Shown: one piece after another, positions 283 to 7,207 of the stretch
How the letters are laid out: every line of letters begins with the position of its first letter
Numbering within the stretch: the stretch's first letter is position 1
Assembly: GCA_030595925.1 (NCBI GenBank)
Contig: JAUVLC010000119.1
Coordinates: 1-7,207, forward strand
Length of the DNA stretch: 7,207 nucleotides
Direction of reading: 5' to 3'
DNA from: Clostridia bacterium
Lineage (GTDB): Bacteria > CBDUZB01 > JAGLHV01
Position numbers and translations under genes: made by a program
Notes under the pieces: model-generated
The model's database searches: none
Seen by the model: only the letters and a program-made list of their open reading frames with translations
What the model was told of the DNA's origin: nothing

Positions 283-550
283 CATGTTTACATATAAAAT
301 AGCAACCCAAATTAGAAATGGGGCGGCAAGGATAACTGACCAAGAATCGACGCTTTTACTTATCTTTCTTGGATAATCTGAATACCCAAGAGTCAGTATT
401 TTCTTTGTTTTTCTCGCCGATATCTTCAAAGATTGCGGTCGTTTGATACTTGACTGTAATTCTTTTTGGTGTTTTGGGGTCATTTGCACTCACTTCCACT
501 GATTTTTTTAATTCTATCTCTGTTGGAATAGGATTTATATAATCTGTCAT
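277..550 (-). pseudogene. Small protein with apparent frame disruption separating a C-terminal membrane segment
   Basis: An ATG at 550 overlaps the TIGR04255-like stop codon (TAATG), implying coupled translation. The frame runs 64 codons (soluble, charged; ends LSKKDK) to a stop at 356. Past that stop, the +1 frame encodes a hydrophobic segment (ILAAPFLIWVAILYV) and ends at a TAA (279-277) exactly inside the attC core GCATAAC, as expected for a cassette gene. Two imperfect copies of GGATAA...CCAAGA(A/G)TC start exactly 46 nt apart by their CCAAGA blocks (340-348 and 386-394). Forty-six is 1 modulo 3. Removing one copy joins ...ENT-DSW to SVILAAPFLI in frame and gives a protein of about 75 residues with a C-terminal membrane anchor. 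I infer a duplication-induced frameshift. Alternatives are a genuine 64-aa gene (356-550), a separate GTG-started ORF (277-489), or programmed frameshifting. I do not recognise the family. Confidence 0.5.
330..394. repeat. Imperfect direct repeat offset by 46 bp, inside the small membrane-tail gene
   Basis: On the plus strand, GGATAACTGACCAAGAATC (330-348) and GGATAATCTGAATACCCAAGAGTC-type sequence (371-394) are similar, with a few inserted bases in the second copy. The CCAAGA blocks are 46 bp apart, so the duplication shifts the reading frame by one. The repeat is imperfect and could be coincidental. Confidence 0.45.
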
Positions 551-1299
551 TAATTCAAAACCTCTATGTATTTAGGGTTAATCTCTTTAACAAATTTTCC
601 ATATGCTGCATGATTCAAGCTGGTAATTATTTCCTCCCATTCACTTGCACCACTCTCACTTTCAATAAATGAGTCTATGTCCAACAACAAATCAAAGACA
701 CCGATCACAGAAGGATAAAATTTATTAGGAATTCCATACTGAAAACGAATTTTAAACCCATCATCATTATATTCTTCCATTCCAATTACTCGTGATTGCA
801 GATCTTCTCCGCTAAGCATCGCCCTAACCACTGAAGACAATCTTTTTCCATAAATTTTACCTATGTTTCTTTTTGTTTTGCATTTGAATTGATTTACATA
901 TCTTAACCCAATTCTTCTCGACTTGGCTTCACCACAAAGAGAATCAACAACATTAACTACCTTGCTCATTATTCCCTTGTACAATGATTTATTTTTATAT
1001 TGATTACTTTCTAACCAAAATGCACATTGTGTCTCAGAAAAAGTCATCGAAATAGATTTTTCCTCTGACACCAAAACATAGTCGAAAGTATCTCCTTTGG
1101 TTAACTCAGAAGACCCTTTTGTGAAATTTATAGAAAACTTATTTATTTGTTTCTTTTCAGTTCTATCAAAGTATTCAGACATTGTTTCAGCAATTTTCGC
1201 AAGATCTAACTGGTCCTTACTTATTAGATCTACTCTGAGTATAAAATTTTTGATCTCATTTTTGGATAGTGTATTATCACCAGTTATATCTTCAGTCAT
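550..1299 (-). CDS. TIGR04255-like family protein, accessory gene of unknown function
   Basis: I place the start at ATG 1299 because AGAGGGTG (1305-1312) sits about 5 nt upstream. An in-frame GTG at 1329 would add ten residues and has no clear ribosome binding site. The product is 249 aa, close to the usual length of the family. Features supporting TIGR04255 are an early strand-rich part (NFILRVDLI), a central R-R-I-G-L-R-Y-V-N-Q segment matching the family's 'RiglRYiN' signature, a later DLLLDIDSF strand and the closing LNHAAYGKFVKEINPKYIEVLN-type helix. The family is sporadically distributed, often in mobile DNA, and its biochemical role is unknown to me. The stop codon overlaps the next small gene's ATG, so the two form a unit bounded by attC sites at 1405-1465 and 226-282. 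I am fairly sure of the gene and moderately sure of the family. Confidence 0.78.
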   Translation of the reverse strand: MTEDITGDNTLSKNEIKNFILRVDLISKDQLDLAKIAETMSEYFDRTEKKQINKFSINFTKGSSELTKGDTFDYVLVSEEKSISMTFSETQCAFWLESNQYKNKSLYKGIMSKVVNVVDSLCGEAKSRRIGLRYVNQFKCKTKRNIGKIYGKRLSSVVRAMLSGEDLQSRVIGMEEYNDDGFKIRFQYGIPNKFYPSVIGVFDLLLDIDSFIESESGASEWEEIITSLNHAAYGKFVKEINPKYIEVLN

Positions 1300-1404
1300 T
1301 AAGACACCCTCTATTGTTTGTTTGGACACATATAAATTTTCTGAGCTAACTTTTTACAATTAATTTTATTATATTTCGCTTAGTTTAGCTGGCATTTTTT
1401 GCAC
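1300..1404 (-). promoter_or_regulatory. Leader of the TIGR04255-like cassette, possible weak -10 element
   Basis: Between the attC site and the ATG at 1299 lies about 100 nt of AT-rich leader. On the minus strand a TATAAT hexamer occurs at about 1366-1371, but the hexamer 16-18 nt upstream is a poor -35 match. A cassette-specific promoter is therefore possible but weakly supported. The clear element is the ribosome binding site AGAGGGTG at 1305-1312. Confidence 0.3.
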
Positions 1405-1473: not shown

Positions 1474-1929
1474 TTATCTAAGTGTGCCTCGTAACCAATT
1501 AATAGCTCTTTGCAAAATTGTTGGGTTGTCATCCATCATTCCCATACCAGAATTACACATACGACAAATATAACCTCTTACCTCGCCTGTTTTATGATTA
1601 TGGTCTAAAACTACATCGTTTACAAATTGTCTTTCAAAGATAGTGTCACAAATAGGACAAATAAAAATATCGCCTATTTGCGGTGACGGGTTCTTTTTTT
1701 GGTACTCACTTTTTCCCTTTTGAGATATAGGTTTTTTACTTTTACGGCAATCGTTACATTCGCCTCGTCTTGAAATACGCCCAGAGATACTTTTTTGGTT
1801 TTTTTGAAAATCAAATATACTTTTTTCAATACTACACTTACGGCATTTTTTAGTTGCCGATAAACACATGTCACAAATTTTATTTGAATTTTCCGTTTGA
1901 TTCTGGCCGCATTCGCTACAAAGAACCAT
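1474..1929 (-). CDS. HNH nuclease of the recombination endonuclease VII type, with zinc modules
   Basis: The 151-aa product contains three cysteine modules: Cys4/7/19/22, Cys29/32/58/61 and Cys91/94/122/125. The third surrounds the catalytic beta-beta-alpha-metal motif VLDHNHKTGEVRGYICRMCN (residues 107-126), with the DHxH pair at 109-112 and a closing CxxCN. This is the signature of Pfam endonuclease VII (T4 gp49-like), which cleaves branched or mismatched DNA. Many phage and mobile HNH nucleases share it. The second module is the common 'CrkC...K..F...CndC' finger found in front of such domains. The ATG at 1929 lies inside the end of the methyltransferase gene (14-nt overlap), indicating translational coupling. 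All key residues are present. It could be a resolvase, a homing-type nuclease, or the restriction partner of the methyltransferase. The sequence cannot decide between these. Confidence 0.88.
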   Translation of the reverse strand: MVLCSECGQNQTENSNKICDMCLSATKKCRKCSIEKSIFDFQKNQKSISGRISRRGECNDCRKSKKPISQKGKSEYQKKNPSPQIGDIFICPICDTIFERQFVNDVVLDHNHKTGEVRGYICRMCNSGMGMMDDNPTILQRAINWLRGTLR

Positions 1930-2722
1930 TCACAACCCCCATAATGCGTTCTTGAGCGATATCACAATATTCTTTACATATTTCGCTACCAACCCATTTT
2001 CGATTTAATAACTTACAACATTTAGCCACTGTTCCACTGCCCATAAACGGATCATAAACTAAATCTCCTTCGTTGCTCCATGATGTAATATGATCTTGAG
2101 CTAACTTTTCAGGGAATATAGCGGGATGTTTATACGCTTCCTTGTCAGAAGAACTATGCCCTTTACCCGTTGAATATTCCCAAATATTAGTCCTTCTCCC
2201 CATTTTAGAATAACCTTTTCTTTTTACTGCTTGCAAAGTACCGTCAAACATTCGCTTTTTGCTTATATCTCCACTACGTGAATCTTTATTTTTTCTATCC
2301 GTTAAAAGATTAATTGTTTTTGGTGTTCCTTTTGATAAAATAAACATATATTCGAATGTTTGCCAATACCCTTTATTGTTTCCAACTGCGCCACGAGGTT
2401 TTTTTTGATATATCATTGTATCAAATAAATTAAATCCAATTTTTTTAAAATATAACGCTTGGCGAAAAGACGTGCCACTTTCGTTGCTTTTTACGGTTTG
2501 GTCTCCGACAATCCAAACAGCGACACCACCAACAGCTATAATACGATACAATTCTTGAGCAATTTTTTCAAATTGGTCAAAAGTATTGCCAGAATATTTT
2601 CTCATATTGTCATATGGTGGGCTGGTAATAACTAAATCAATATAATTATCATTCATTAACGACATGGTATTTAAGCAACATTTATTATAGATTTTATTAA
2701 TAATAATATCTTTCTGAGGCAT
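1916..2722 (-). CDS. Beta-class site-specific DNA methyltransferase (N4-cytosine or N6-adenine)
   Basis: This 268-aa protein is predicted to transfer a methyl group from S-adenosylmethionine to an exocyclic amino group in duplex DNA. Catalytic motif IV TSPPY is at residues 33-37. The AdoMet-binding motif I DPFMGSGT is at 224-231, preceded by HPAIFPEKLAQDHI (199-212) and followed by acidic GSEI (245-248). The order IV...I is the beta-class arrangement. SPPY is common in N4-cytosine enzymes but not diagnostic. The recognition region should lie in the variable middle (about 100-195). The ATG at 2722 follows GAGAGGA with 4-5 nt spacing. The length and motif set are complete. It heads a two-gene cassette with the HNH nuclease, whose start overlaps its 3' end, so it may be a host-evasion methylase or half of a restriction-modification pair. 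Confidence 0.93.
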   Translation of the reverse strand: MPQKDIIINKIYNKCCLNTMSLMNDNYIDLVITSPPYDNMRKYSGNTFDQFEKIAQELYRIIAVGGVAVWIVGDQTVKSNESGTSFRQALYFKKIGFNLFDTMIYQKKPRGAVGNNKGYWQTFEYMFILSKGTPKTINLLTDRKNKDSRSGDISKKRMFDGTLQAVKRKGYSKMGRRTNIWEYSTGKGHSSSDKEAYKHPAIFPEKLAQDHITSWSNEGDLVYDPFMGSGTVAKCCKLLNRKWVGSEICKEYCDIAQERIMGVVNGSL

Positions 2723-2819: not shown

Positions 2820-3416
2820 TTATAATTTTCGTTCTCGGCCCAATCCATCCGTAAACAAATAGCGCTCAGGATAAAAAGTTTTTTTAAACAATTTTTTAGG
2901 AATTATTTTTTCCACATAAATCCCCTTGGTGAAAAATATTACCTTTTGGAGCACAGGAAATTTTACAGCGTCTCCATGCCGTCCGAATGTCCCCTTTACG
3001 TCAATATAGGAAATGAGGTCATCGTTAGGGTAATTTTTATTCCTTATTGCTACAAAAGGTTTTCGAGTTCTTGAATGAACAGATATATCCTCCCCGTTAA
3101 GGGTATAAACATACTTTTCAACACCTTTTTTATTCCAGGTGATTACAAAATCTGGCGTGTAGTCAAGACTTTGCAATAGATTACCTGGTTTTTCTGTTTC
3201 AGATTTTATATTCTTTTTCGCCCAAAAATATTCTGGAGCTGGGATAATTTCCATTTGCTCCGGTTGGTATTGTGTCAGTTTTATATCCCCTGATTTTTCG
3301 AGGTCATCACAAAACCATTGAAAATATGTCTCTTCTTTAGAATCATATATTTGACCAGCATACTCATGTTTTGTGTTTTTACCAATTTTTATTGGAATTA
3401 TTTTTTGCACTGTCAT
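2820..3416 (-). CDS. PD-(D/E)XK-superfamily phage endonuclease (DUF1064-like)
   Basis: The 198-aa protein shows the restriction-endonuclease-fold signature: a helix with Glu28/Glu29 (SKEETYFQWF), a YTPDFVI strand with Asp89 (residues 86-92), then SYIDVKG (136-142) providing the D-x-K pair Asp139/Lys141. A further lysine-rich KFPVLQKVIFF segment follows, as in the family. Pfam DUF1064 and related phage nucleases have this layout (E...PDF...DVKG...K) and often sit in replication modules, where a resolvase or recombination role is assumed. The ATG at 3416 has an excellent AGGAGG site 8 nt upstream. An insert of about 45 residues between the PDF and DVKG strands (95-135) is longer than I expect for the family. 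It stands between two attC-like sites, so it may be a one-gene cassette or the last gene of the phage operon. Confidence 0.75.
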   Translation of the reverse strand: MTVQKIIPIKIGKNTKHEYAGQIYDSKEETYFQWFCDDLEKSGDIKLTQYQPEQMEIIPAPEYFWAKKNIKSETEKPGNLLQSLDYTPDFVITWNKKGVEKYVYTLNGEDISVHSRTRKPFVAIRNKNYPNDDLISYIDVKGTFGRHGDAVKFPVLQKVIFFTKGIYVEKIIPKKLFKKTFYPERYLFTDGLGRERKL

Positions 3417-4318: not shown

Positions 4319-4821
4319 TTTTCAATTCCTTTAATTAATTTTAATTTTCTTTTAGGTGCTTCGACCTGTAAATTGCCAATTTTTGAATGCGCAAGGTACG
4401 AGCTAATAAACTCTCTTTTCCAAAAAGGTAAATCTTCACCAAGGTTAAAATCCTTTGCCCATCGAACGTAATCCCATCGACACGTCATTAAGTATCTTGT
4501 AACTGGATCAATCATTTCAGGGATTTCAGGGAGTTCTTTGTAATAATCCCATTCTGAATTTTCTCTTCGAAACGCTATAAGTTTATCAGCTTCTATAATG
4601 GCTCTTTGCTCCAAGCTACCATTCATAAATTCAATCAAATCTGCTGGTTTTGGGAAAAATTTACAATATGTGATAGCCAGACTAAAAGCTTTTTTGCATT
4701 CATCGCTATTAAATGGCTCTAATACTTTCCAATATATTTTTGTTAAAACTGGAGTAATTTCTTTGTTAAAAACTTCGCCTATACCGGCCATAAATTCTTT
4801 AAAAGCAGCTTTATCCTTCAT
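4315..4821 (-). CDS. Putative phage replicative helicase loader (G39P-like)
   Basis: I prefer ATG 4821 over the in-frame GTG at 4824 because GGGAGG lies 6 nt upstream of the ATG, giving 168 aa. The N-terminal half (FKEFMAGIGEVF, then KIYWKVLEPFNSDECKKAF and ITYCKFFPKPADLIEFMNG) has the helix pattern and the 'F.P.p.di..' turn of small phage helicase loaders such as SPP1 G39P. The C-terminal half is basic (KRKLKLIKGIEK) and Trp/Tyr-rich (WDYYKEL, CRWDYVRWAKDF). Such proteins load the DnaB-type helicase at the initiator-bound origin. It starts inside the end of the DnaD-type initiator gene (11-nt overlap) and ends overlapping the next gene by 4 nt, the order expected for initiator then loader. 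The family assignment rests on pattern and context. Confidence 0.62.
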   Translation of the reverse strand: MKDKAAFKEFMAGIGEVFNKEITPVLTKIYWKVLEPFNSDECKKAFSLAITYCKFFPKPADLIEFMNGSLEQRAIIEADKLIAFRRENSEWDYYKELPEIPEMIDPVTRYLMTCRWDYVRWAKDFNLGEDLPFWKREFISSYLAHSKIGNLQVEAPKRKLKLIKGIEK

Positions 4822-5662
4822 CACCAGCCTCCCACTCGTTTAATACGTTAATATTCTTCATTGTTGTTTCAGACACTTTTCCTTGCAACGGATTATTTTT
4901 TTCGTTTAAATAACTTTCAAACTTATTGCTGAATAATGTTTGCGGCCGGAGCCACCCTGAACATTTTGGATCATTTAACCATTGTTGCGATTTAACTTTT
5001 ATTACAAACTTAAAATTATCAAAAGTAAACCCTTGTTTCCATCTGGCTTTAATCAAGGCTTTTGTAGTTGGAGTATTGCTTTTAAAATTTTTATCTGTTT
5101 TTTTATTTAGGTAAGATACTATTTCTTGGTAAGGGATTTTTGGGTTGGGGGTTGGGGGAGTAGTATTTTTTTCCTTTACCTTTACCTTTACCTTTTCCTT
5201 TACCTTTACCTTTACCTTTGTGGCATTTCCAACAACATTAACTCCGTTTCCAACAACATTAACTCCGTTTCCAACTCCAGAAACATTAATTAGCATATAT
5301 TTTGGTATGATCTCAACTTGTTTTTTAAGCCTTGCAGCAGCAAAATATCTTTTTTGAAGACCTCTTGATGTTAAAATTCTATGATTTTCATACATATTAA
5401 TATCGAAAATTCCGACATCAATGGCGTTTCTAACAACATTAACTATGTTTTCAACACTGGAAAAACACTTTTGTTTTATCTTTAATGGGAATTTTTTATC
5501 ATATGAGATATAATATCCCTGCCCTTTATAAATAGCTTGCCATATTGTTATTAAAATGCCTAAGCCCTCTGCCCCCGTTTCAGCGATTAACAGTTGTAAA
5601 TCATCGTCAAACTCTGTATCTAACGGGAAATAATCAATCCCTTGCTTTGTTGGCCTTGCCAT
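4811..5662 (-). CDS. Phage replication initiator, Lin1244/Lin1753 N-domain plus phage 2220-type C-domain
   Basis: The 283-aa protein has two recognisable parts. Residues 8-120 begin GIDYFPLDTEFDDD and include AEGLGILITIWQAIY and the closing RYFAAARLKKQ. This is the Lin1244/Lin1753-like (DUF4373) winged-helix domain typical of phage DnaD/DnaB-type initiators. Residues 178-253 (YQEIVSYLNKKT, then WLNDPKCSGWLRPQTLF and KFESYLNE) match the conserved phage C-terminal domain (TIGR02220 type). The linker (129-170) is low complexity: VNVVGNG repeats followed by alternating Lys/Val and Lys/Glu. Such proteins bind the phage origin and recruit helicase and loader. The ATG at 5662 has only a weak AAGG site and lies 17 nt after the winged-helix gene, so translation may depend on coupling. 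A phage origin could lie within this gene, but I cannot point to it. Confidence 0.85.
   Translation of the reverse strand: MARPTKQGIDYFPLDTEFDDDLQLLIAETGAEGLGILITIWQAIYKGQGYYISYDKKFPLKIKQKCFSSVENIVNVVRNAIDVGIFDINMYENHRILTSRGLQKRYFAAARLKKQVEIIPKYMLINVSGVGNGVNVVGNGVNVVGNATKVKVKVKEKVKVKVKEKNTTPPTPNPKIPYQEIVSYLNKKTDKNFKSNTPTTKALIKARWKQGFTFDNFKFVIKVKSQQWLNDPKCSGWLRPQTLFSNKFESYLNEKNNPLQGKVSETTMKNINVLNEWEAGDEG
5172..5219. repeat. Hexanucleotide tract in the initiator linker
   Basis: The plus strand carries about eight near-perfect units of CCTTTA, with two CCTTTT variants. On the minus strand they encode the alternating KVKVKEK linker. Unit-number changes stay in frame, so linker length can vary without disrupting the protein. 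Confidence 0.85.
5226..5275. repeat. 21-bp tandem repeat in the initiator linker
   Basis: Two identical units TTTCCAACAACATTAACTCCG (5226-5246 and 5247-5267) and a partial third (5268-5275) encode VNVVGNG repeats on the minus strand. A diverged copy, differing at four positions, sits at 5427-5447 in the N-terminal domain and encodes VNVVRNA, which suggests it as the source of the repeat. Confidence 0.85.
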
Positions 5663-5908: not shown

Positions 5909-6109
5909 TTAAAAAATATCTTTGACCTCACACCCAAGACACGCCGCCAATATTGCCGCCTGTTCAGGTGTTGGGATTCTATGCCCCACAATAAATCCTG
6001 ATATAAACGAAGGATCAAGTTTTGTCTCTTTTGCTATATCCTGTTGCTTGCGCCTCTGATCCCGAATTTTTGCTTTTAGCTTACCGTTGTACTCAATTTT
6101 TTTTAACAT
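5909..6109 (-). CDS. Xre-family helix-turn-helix regulator (Cro/CI-like), single domain
   Basis: The 66-aa protein is almost entirely an Xre-type domain. KLKAKIRDQRRKQQDIAKET (10-29) forms helices 1-2, and KLDPSFISGFIVGHRIPTPE (30-49) forms the recognition helix and following turn. AAILAACLGCEVKDIF (51-66) completes the five-helix bundle and closes with the typical 'l.v...dlf' ending. It lacks the C-terminal peptidase or dimerisation domain of a long CI repressor, so it resembles Cro or a short repressor. The ATG at 6109 has AGGAG (6117-6121) 7 nt upstream. It is first in the minus-strand operon and immediately upstream of the palindrome-bearing promoter, which is its most likely target. It could also control the divergent plus-strand gene. 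Confidence 0.88.
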   Translation of the reverse strand: MLKKIEYNGKLKAKIRDQRRKQQDIAKETKLDPSFISGFIVGHRIPTPEQAAILAACLGCEVKDIF

Positions 6110-6137
6110 TTTTATTCTCCTTTAATTTATTAATCAT
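6093..6137 (-). CDS. Possible 14-codon leader ORF overlapping the Xre gene start
   Basis: An ATG at 6137 with its own AGGAG site 6 nt upstream opens a short frame (MINKLKENKNVKKN) that ends at TGA 6095-6093, just inside the Xre gene but in another frame. Its codons include the Xre ribosome binding site. Translation through it could modulate Xre initiation. It is very short and Lys/Asn-rich, so it may be coincidental. Confidence 0.25.
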   Translation of the reverse strand: MINKLKENKNVKKN

Positions 6138-6190
6138 TAGGTTCTCCTATTGTTTTATTTCTTCAGCCAGCGCATTTTAAATACAGCTTT

Positions 6191-6219
6191 AGGATAGTAT
6201 TGTTTTTTATTAATGTCAA
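6191..6219 (-). promoter_or_regulatory. Promoter for the Xre regulator gene
   Basis: On the minus strand, consensus TTGACA (6219-6214) is followed by a 17-bp spacer and TATCCT (6196-6191), four of six matches to TATAAT. The transcript would have a leader of about 75-80 nt before the Xre ATG. The GTCAAC half-site at 6215-6220 overlaps the -35 box and matches one arm of the palindrome at 5888-5905. Confidence 0.6.
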
Positions 6220-6424
6220 CTTAAAAATAATAAAAAAATAAACATAACAAGGACAATCGCTTATAGTCTATTGTAATAAATTTTTTATTTTTTTTAAAAT
6301 AATGCTTGACAAGAAAATTCTTTTATTGTAGCTTGTTTTTAACGGCAAAAACATTGCGTCATAATATATAATTCACGTTAGCCGATGATTAAAACGTTAT
6401 GTCCTCGGGCGAAGGGAATACAAA
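6220..6424. other. Divergent regulatory region between the Xre operon and the PRPP-synthetase-like gene
   Basis: This very AT-rich stretch carries the start signals of both directions. For the plus strand, TTGACA (6306-6311) is followed at 17 bp by a poor -10 (TAGCTT). A second candidate -10, TATAAT at 6367-6372, has no good -35. The ribosome binding site of the plus-strand gene, GAAGGGA, is at 6411-6417. A further short inverted repeat ACAAT/ATTGT occurs around 6253-6275. I see no RNA gene here. Confidence 0.5.
6336..6402 (+). repeat. Degenerate attC-like element in plus orientation before the PRPP-synthetase-like gene
   Basis: On the plus strand, the right end GCCGATGATTAAAAC followed by GTTATGT (6381-6402) closely parallels the right end of the good attC on the minus strand at 248-226 (GGCGGTTAATTAAAAC, then GTTATCT). 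GTTTTTAACGGC (6335-6346) pairs imperfectly with GCCGATGATTAAAAC, and TTTTAAC could serve as left core. The inner arms are poor. If real, this attC points opposite to the others. Confidence 0.35.
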
Positions 6425-7183
6425 ATGATATATCTCAATAATAAAAAAGTTAATTTTGGACAATTTCCGAACAATGAAATAAACCTACCATTGTCAAATT
6501 TGAAAATAAAAAAACATAATATTGTCAAATTTATATATGAAGACGATGGCGATATTTTTAAACTATCCCTTATTAAGTCATGCCTTGATGACCTTTCAGT
6601 AAGATCATTGTTGGAAATATGTTATATGCCATATTCCAGGATGGATAGGGCGAATGGTATTTATGCAGTCAGTTTGAAATGCATGACAAAGCTTATTAAC
6701 GATATGAAGTTTGGTTCTGTACAAGTGAGGGAGCCACATTCAATGGCAACAATATATGGAATCAACAATATGTTTGTAGATTGGTGGTGTGAATCTCGGC
6801 TTCTAAGCGTAGCCGAGCTTTTTAATGCGGATACACTTTTCTTCCCAGATAAGGGAGCACAAGATCGTTACAAAGTAGATAGCTTGCCATCAGCTATTGG
6901 GTTTAAAAAAAGAAATTTTCAAAGTGGGGATATTGAGGAATATAATATAGATGGTAATGTAGGACAGAATGTTTTAATTGTAGATGACCTTTGCAGTAGA
7001 GGAGGCACATTCATTAAAGCATCTATCCTACTGAAAGAAAAGGGAGCTAAACATATCGCTTTATTAGTTGCTCATTGCGAAAATAATGTTTTTACAGGAT
7101 CTATATTTGATCATATTGACATGCTCTACACAAGCAAAGAATTGTTAAATAGAGATCATTCAAAAATCATAAAATTAAATTAA
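6425..7183 (+). CDS. Short phage-type PRPP synthetase-like enzyme (possible ADP-ribose pyrophosphate synthetase)
   Basis: The 252-aa protein belongs to the ribose-phosphate pyrophosphokinase family. It has FPNNEINLPL (14-23), YMPYSRMDR (68-76, the ATP-binding flexible loop), EPHS (103-106, aligning with D-x-H-S), PDKGAQDRY (141-149), a KKR motif at 161-163 where the catalytic Lys and Arg lie, and the phosphoribosyl loop VDDLCSRGGTF (186-196). It ends with a VAHCENNVFTG segment. Cellular Prs is about 310-320 aa, so this is a compact version. Known members transfer pyrophosphate from ATP to ribose-5-phosphate; the phage NAD+-reconstitution enzyme Adps does the same to ADP-ribose. The ATG follows GAAGGGA by 7 nt. 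A new gene with a strong ribosome binding site starts 15 nt downstream, so it heads an operon divergent from the Xre operon. Which substrate it uses cannot be read from the sequence. Confidence 0.9.
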   Translation: MIYLNNKKVNFGQFPNNEINLPLSNLKIKKHNIVKFIYEDDGDIFKLSLIKSCLDDLSVRSLLEICYMPYSRMDRANGIYAVSLKCMTKLINDMKFGSVQVREPHSMATIYGINNMFVDWWCESRLLSVAELFNADTLFFPDKGAQDRYKVDSLPSAIGFKKRNFQSGDIEEYNIDGNVGQNVLIVDDLCSRGGTFIKASILLKEKGAKHIALLVAHCENNVFTGSIFDHIDMLYTSKELLNRDHSKIIKLN

Positions 7184-7198
7184 AGGAGAGATTTAAAA

Positions 7199-7207
7199 AT
7201 GATGAAA
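7199..7207 (+). CDS. Start of a downstream gene, cut by the window end
   Basis: ATG-ATG-AAA at 7199-7207 is preceded by GGAGAG (7185-7190) at 8 nt spacing, 15 nt after the stop of the PRPP-synthetase-like gene, so a co-transcribed gene almost certainly begins here. Only three codons are visible, so its product cannot be identified. By analogy with phage NAD+ salvage pairs, a nicotinamide (phosphoribosyl or ADP-ribosyl) transferase is the expectation to test. Confidence 0.6.

Follow-up and report, generated by a model that had tools for sequence, protein, structure and literature searches.

A phage-like contig from a Clostridia bacterium ends in a predicted Adps gene that probably opens a NARP1 operon

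The window comprises contig C172 (7207 bp) in full, from a genome bin of 193 contigs and 2.6 Mb (G000). The gene at positions 6425-7183 very probably encodes an Adps on a (probably temperate) phage, and it would open a NARP1 operon that continues past the contig end. We favor this reading because of the family, clade, motif set and fold of the protein, together with the constant Namat/NAMPT-like partner in its relatives. NARP1 counter-defence was reportedly described in 2024 by Osterman and colleagues. Both phage and bacterial members are already known (PMC12774641), and the system on C172 is likely an additional member of NARP1 and not a new system.

Most of C172 is a phage early region on the minus strand, which also holds small genes of unknown function. 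The sole large gene on the plus strand is the 252-aa open reading frame, which is divergent from a gene for an HTH regulator and was present exactly as described in the original prediction. The annotated genes are as follows.

550-1329, minus strand: TIGR04255 family protein (E 2.8e-15)
1474-1929, minus strand: endonuclease VII-like protein
1916-2722, minus strand: orphan N6/N4 DNA methyltransferase, phage-type
2820-3416, minus strand: DUF1064-like protein (weak family match)
4811-5662, minus strand: phage replication-initiation protein with Lin1244_N and Phg_2220_C domains
5909-6109, minus strand: HTH regulator of 66 aa (PF01381, E 4.4e-7), divergent neighbour of the Adps gene
6425-7183, plus strand: Adps-type enzyme of 252 aa with an ATG start, predicted ADP-ribose pyrophosphate synthetase with a PRPP-synthetase fold

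The replication-initiation protein, with its two phage domains, indicates that C172 is phage-derived. It is very unlikely that the Adps gene is instead a chromosomal NARP1-type gene of the host, or that the contig has been misbinned. Bacterial NARP1 systems do exist (PMC12774641; Clostridium loci L003-L006), and C172 is short, ends within the operon and contains no phage structural or integrase gene. Against a chromosomal origin, the neighbours include the replication-initiation protein, the endonuclease VII-like protein, the phage-type methyltransferase and the HTH regulator. Also, a search for the Adps gene in two genomes of the same genus and in wider relatives gave no match outside the bin, the remaining matches being cellular PRPP synthetases (Prs); beyond these two genomes, the nearest ones in the comparison belong only to the same domain. 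The G+C content of C172, 33.2%, is similar to the 29-33% of host stretches, which is neither a sign of misbinning nor proof against it. No closer phage relatives were found in viral contigs with the DUF1064-like, replication-protein and 169-aa genes of C172. The TIGR04255 family, which is sporadically distributed, is here found on a phage-like contig. A promoter scan of positions 6100-7207 gave 11 sites, as compared to 7.5 expected by chance, and no promoter is claimed; an inverted repeat at 6221-6297 consists of poly-A/T.

The 252-aa open reading frame is real, far beyond chance, since residues 5-247 match PHROG 619 (ribose-phosphate pyrophosphokinase) with an E-value of 9.4e-55, 1276 phage records match the protein in tblastn searches, and a Prs fold is modelled with confidence. 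The AlphaFold2 model, built from a 32-sequence alignment, has a pLDDT of 93.1 and a pTM of 0.87, and all Foldseek matches listed for it are Prs, with a TM-score of about 0.75 and 15-21% identity. The best phage matches are from Bacillus phages, with 36-40% identity. The second-best of them is the Adps of SPbetaL1 (WIT26982.1; 39% identity, 97% cover), which is also the nearest Adps that has been assayed. The protein scored far below the cut-offs of two curated Prs models, with 69.7 bits against NF002095 (cut-off 296) and 68.7 bits against TIGR01251 (cut-off 113); the SPbetaL1 Adps likewise falls below the latter cut-off (106 vs. 113). The original prediction of a PRPP-synthetase-like enzyme, a candidate Adps, is supported by the PHROG 619 match, the fold model, the sequence motifs and the grouping with the SPbetaL1 Adps. 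The motifs, all on the plus strand, are located as follows.

6464-6478, plus strand: FPNNE, residues 14-18, aligned with F-[SA]-DGE of cellular Prs
6623-6649, plus strand: YMPYSRMDR, residues 67-75, aligned with cellular YxGYxRQDR
6728-6742, plus strand: REPHS, residues 102-106, aligned with cellular DLH[AS], with the conserved His inside
6845-6871, plus strand: PDKGAQDRY, residues 141-149, aligned with cellular PDxGGVxRA (pyrophosphate loop)
6905-6919, plus strand: KKRNF, residues 161-165, aligned with the KRR catalytic loop
6980-7012, plus strand: VDDLCSRGGTF, residues 186-196, the PRPP-synthetase signature loop, with SRGGT instead of cellular DT[A/G]GT

The F-[SA]-DGE motif of Prs is the ATP site, and the signature loop holds the 5'-phosphate of ribose-5-phosphate. 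In cellular Prs this loop typically reads DD[MI]xDT[A/G]GT, whereas the C172 protein has DDLCSRGGTF, and VDDLCSRGGTF was found in none of the 32 cellular Prs. Loops of the type DD[LIM]xS[RKYF]G are common to the C172 protein and its SPbetaL1-type relatives, as compared to DDMxDT[A/G]GT, typical of the cellular enzymes. A bulkier or basic side chain at the Thr position might fit a phosphate that is part of the diphosphate of ADP-ribose. No Adps structure has been reported (PMC12774641), and the loop argument is a correlation, because the residues behind the preference of Adps for ADP-ribose are unpublished. The C172 protein carries the complete set of SPbetaL1-group motifs: YMPYSRMDR, EPHS, PDxGAxxRY and DDLCSRGGTF. 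The exact loop is a mark of the SPbetaL1-type clade and not of all Adps, since more distant relatives, such as those of the Felixounavirus and ICP1 types, have DDICDGGRTF or DDICDGAASF instead.

We inferred a quick maximum-likelihood tree, midpoint-rooted and with SH-aLRT support, from an alignment of 121 sequences: the C172 protein, 88 relatives from phages, plasmids or bacteria, and 32 cellular Prs, one of which is encoded by the host itself on contig C50. A branch of length 2.7, for which the SH-aLRT support is 100%, splits the cellular Prs, that of the host included, from the other 89 sequences. In this quick tree, the original test for an ordinary Prs, the C172 protein is placed on the phage side with the SPbetaL1 Adps, apart from the cellular enzymes. 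Within the large SPbetaL1 Adps clade, it forms a group with 98% support together with proteins from two IMG/VR contigs, L034 (52% identity) and L035 (45%). A second scan with this close clade recovered mostly loci already found, and none closer than 52%. The KVP40 record (AY283928), whose Prs had originally been proposed as a comparator, was searched, in the absence of a positive control, for a relative of the Adps/Prs-like protein of Aeromonas phage 65, and none was found.

Judged from its sequence, the 252-aa protein is no ordinary PRPP synthetase. With cellular Prs it has in common the fold (TM-score of about 0.75), the conserved His and the basic catalytic loop, but it is a compact form, about 60 residues shorter, with only 15-21% identity in structure alignments and a different ribose-phosphate loop. 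It is unlikely that the enzyme is a phage PRPP synthetase with ribose-5-phosphate as its substrate, whose product would supply either a downstream NAMPT (PRPP + nicotinamide to NMN) or nucleotide synthesis. Such an activity would agree with the Prs fold, with the name ribose-phosphate pyrophosphokinase given to both PHROG 619 and the Pfam family, and with the PRPP-dependent, NMN-forming activity that Namat keeps in vitro (PMC12774641). It is argued against by the tree, in which all 32 cellular Prs are clearly set apart, the replaced ribose-phosphate loop, the Adps activity shown for SPbetaL1 in the same large clade, and the Namat clamp motif in the partners of the nearest relatives, in L034 with one change to His. 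This selectivity-clamp motif, published as GSX-Phi-X-Phi-X-Phi-TRD, is a helix motif that is absent from Nampt and distinguishes Namat from it. In L035 it is complete (GSYTFQYNTRD), while in L034 (GSYTYQHNTRD) a His stands where the second adenine-contacting residue would be an aromatic Tyr/Phe; both partners are of the Namat type.

We compared the Adps gene of C172 to known systems. The SPbetaL1 NARP1 (Adps WIT26982.1 and Namat WIT26983.1) has an enzyme with the same motif blocks and 39% identity over 97% of the length, with Phe in the loop where the C172 protein has Arg192. In vitro, Adps and Namat of SPbetaL1 turn ADPR, ATP and nicotinamide into NAD+, and the pair protects cells from the Kongming NADase (PMC12774641). 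The NrsA/NrsB pair of phage ICP1 likewise has a PHROG-619-type enzyme beside a Namat-like gene, and NAD+ is raised in infected cells that carry Nezha (PMC11559045); however, the ICP1 enzyme shows only 31% identity over 69% to the C172 protein, with DDICDGAASF in place of DDLCSRGGTF. Bacterial NARP1 systems, in Paenibacillus foliorum (PMC12774641) and in the Clostridium loci (L003-L006), also combine an Adps-type enzyme, with about 40% identity for Clostridium, with a partner that carries the Namat motif, but these are chromosomal, and the Clostridium loci include NrtR and nicotinamidase, while C172 is a phage-like contig. The order in the Clostridium operon is NrtR (NUDIX and winged helix), Adps, nicotinamidase and a Namat-type gene, which suggests a role in regulated ADP-ribose salvage in bacteria.

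Only 24 bases of the contig are left after the stop at 7183, and they contain two features.

7184-7188, plus strand: AGGAG, Shine-Dalgarno-like, directly after the Adps stop codon
7199-7207, plus strand: first codons of the following gene, ATG ATG AAA, truncated where the contig ends; predicted to be Namat, or else a small gene (for example a macro domain) with Namat after it

Of the gene that was originally predicted to follow immediately, the start-like site is present, but the gene itself hardly enters the window; it is seen only as the Shine-Dalgarno sequence and ATGATGAAA, that is, two to three residues (M-M-K). The spacing from the stop to the next start is 15 bases, as compared to SPbetaL1, where Namat directly follows Adps and overlaps the end of its gene. 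No overlap with the last 127 bases of C172 was identified among the other contigs of the assembly. A gene of the NAMPT/NAPRTase type was not found elsewhere in the assembly with PF04095, and PHROG 12872 matched only two Prs-like genes.

The downstream genes were examined in 78 non-redundant relatives. In 77 of these, the Adps gene is followed by 700 bp or more of sequence, and all 77 contain a downstream NAMPT/Namat-like gene on the same strand, which starts within 100 bp of Adps in 42 cases and within 1 kb in 70. The operon claim is thus a well-grounded prediction from relatives, which speak strongly, if indirectly, for a Namat gene in the truncated operon of C172, not necessarily as the next one. 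In the closest relative, the uncharacterised L034, which is 52% identical end to end and shares both the VDDLCSRGGTF loop and the closing residues KLN, a macro domain gene (154 aa, Pfam-confirmed) lies between Adps and Namat. Macro-like genes occupy this position in four phage contigs (L034:5772-6236, L039:5789-6289, L058:4896-5327, L084:5821-6279), although in L058 and L084 the Pfam scores lie close to the cut-off or under it. The L034 macro domain was also searched for in the genome of the window, and none was found. A HAD-type gene directly follows Adps in 13 loci, some of which are near-copies. In L048, L051, L063, L071, L078, L080 and L093, a gene of about 133-147 aa with the sequence IIIAYDFDxTVYDF, HAD-like by eye, is located between Adps and Namat; one member was tested and gave no Pfam match. 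In L050, a nucleoside 2-deoxyribosyltransferase-like gene (PF15891; 5829-6329) is found in the same place.

In 24 loci, mostly on a separate branch, NadE is present, nearly always together with PncA. The combination of Adps-like, PncA, NAMPT-like and NadE genes is seen in L016, L017, L025, L076, L082 and L085-L113, mostly in one branch with 98% support, and the NAMPT-like gene of this branch has an insertion before TRD (GSFSMQC..TRD). The gene content of this branch suggests a deamido form of NARP1, in which nicotinamide would be converted to nicotinate, nicotinate and ADPR-PP to NaAD, and NaAD by NadE to NAD+; no description of such a variant was found in a literature search.

These loci raise the doubtful possibility that the Adps of C172 belongs to an extended ADP-ribose operon, either with a macro domain gene next or with a deamido route through nicotinamidase and NadE. 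The macro domain directly next to Adps in L034, the three further relatives with macro-like genes, the 13 HAD-type loci and the 24 loci with NadE and nearly always PncA speak for such an arrangement. Against the deamido form, the C172 protein groups with the plain Adps-Namat branch and not with the PncA/NadE branch. As a clue to the next gene the visible M-M-K is uninformative, since many Namat proteins begin with MK. The macro-domain form is compatible with the reading of the gene as an Adps in a NARP1 operon. By analogy to L034, the operon could perhaps be a three-gene unit for ADP-ribose recycling (Adps, macro domain, Namat), although we consider this rather doubtful.

For the C172 phage, we infer which substrate Adps uses, that a Namat gene is present and which defence the system would counter. 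A NADase defence of the host, for example the DSR1-like SIR2 protein of the bin, would cleave NAD+ to ADP-ribose and nicotinamide. Using ATP, Adps would then pyrophosphorylate ADP-ribose at its terminal ribose, and the downstream Namat would swap the pyrophosphate for nicotinamide to yield NAD+, in two steps in all, such that NAD+ would be rebuilt and the infection could go on.

Candidate sources of such an attack were identified in the bin. The DSR1-like SIR2 protein (1360 aa; L232:566-4648, contig C151) matches the PADLOC Dsr1 model with an E-value of 7.5e-247, and two adjacent TIR-domain genes at a contig end (L231:4272-6119, contig C165) represent a possible TIR-based defence. Further SIR2 proteins are present, one of which resembles the SIR2 of short-Argonaute systems. 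Enzymes of the DSR1, TIR and SIR2 types yield ADP-ribose and nicotinamide, which are the inputs of NARP1. The NADase-type proteins of the bin are a plausible target of the C172 system, as context and not as proof of an encounter. The suggestion that other genes point to phage-host conflict holds weakly within C172, for the orphan methyltransferase and the endonuclease VII-like protein, and better for the NADase-type genes elsewhere in the bin.

Genes that handle ADP-ribose near NARP1 have been described in other phages. A macro gene is located near NARP1 in Pseudomonas phage Adele, with a role that is only proposed (PMC12846349), and an RyR-domain enzyme of mycobacteriophage DyoEdafos has been shown to feed ADP-ribose into NARP1 (PMC13232231). 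If the operon of C172 is indeed a three-gene unit, the macro domain would detach ADP-ribose, either from ADP-ribosylated targets or from immune signals based on ADP-ribose, and supply it to Adps, and the phage would both erase the ADP-ribose signal and rebuild NAD+. With the predicted Adps, NARP1 would reach a phage-like element from a bacterial lineage for which few relatives could be compared. The bin combines this counter-defence gene with the DSR1-like NADase and further candidates for NAD cleavage, which would make a natural pair of attack and repair. The loops also provide a sequence rule, DDxxS[RKYF]GGT for the SPbetaL1-type Adps and DDxxDT[A/G]GT for PRPP synthetases, the name under which the former are routinely annotated.
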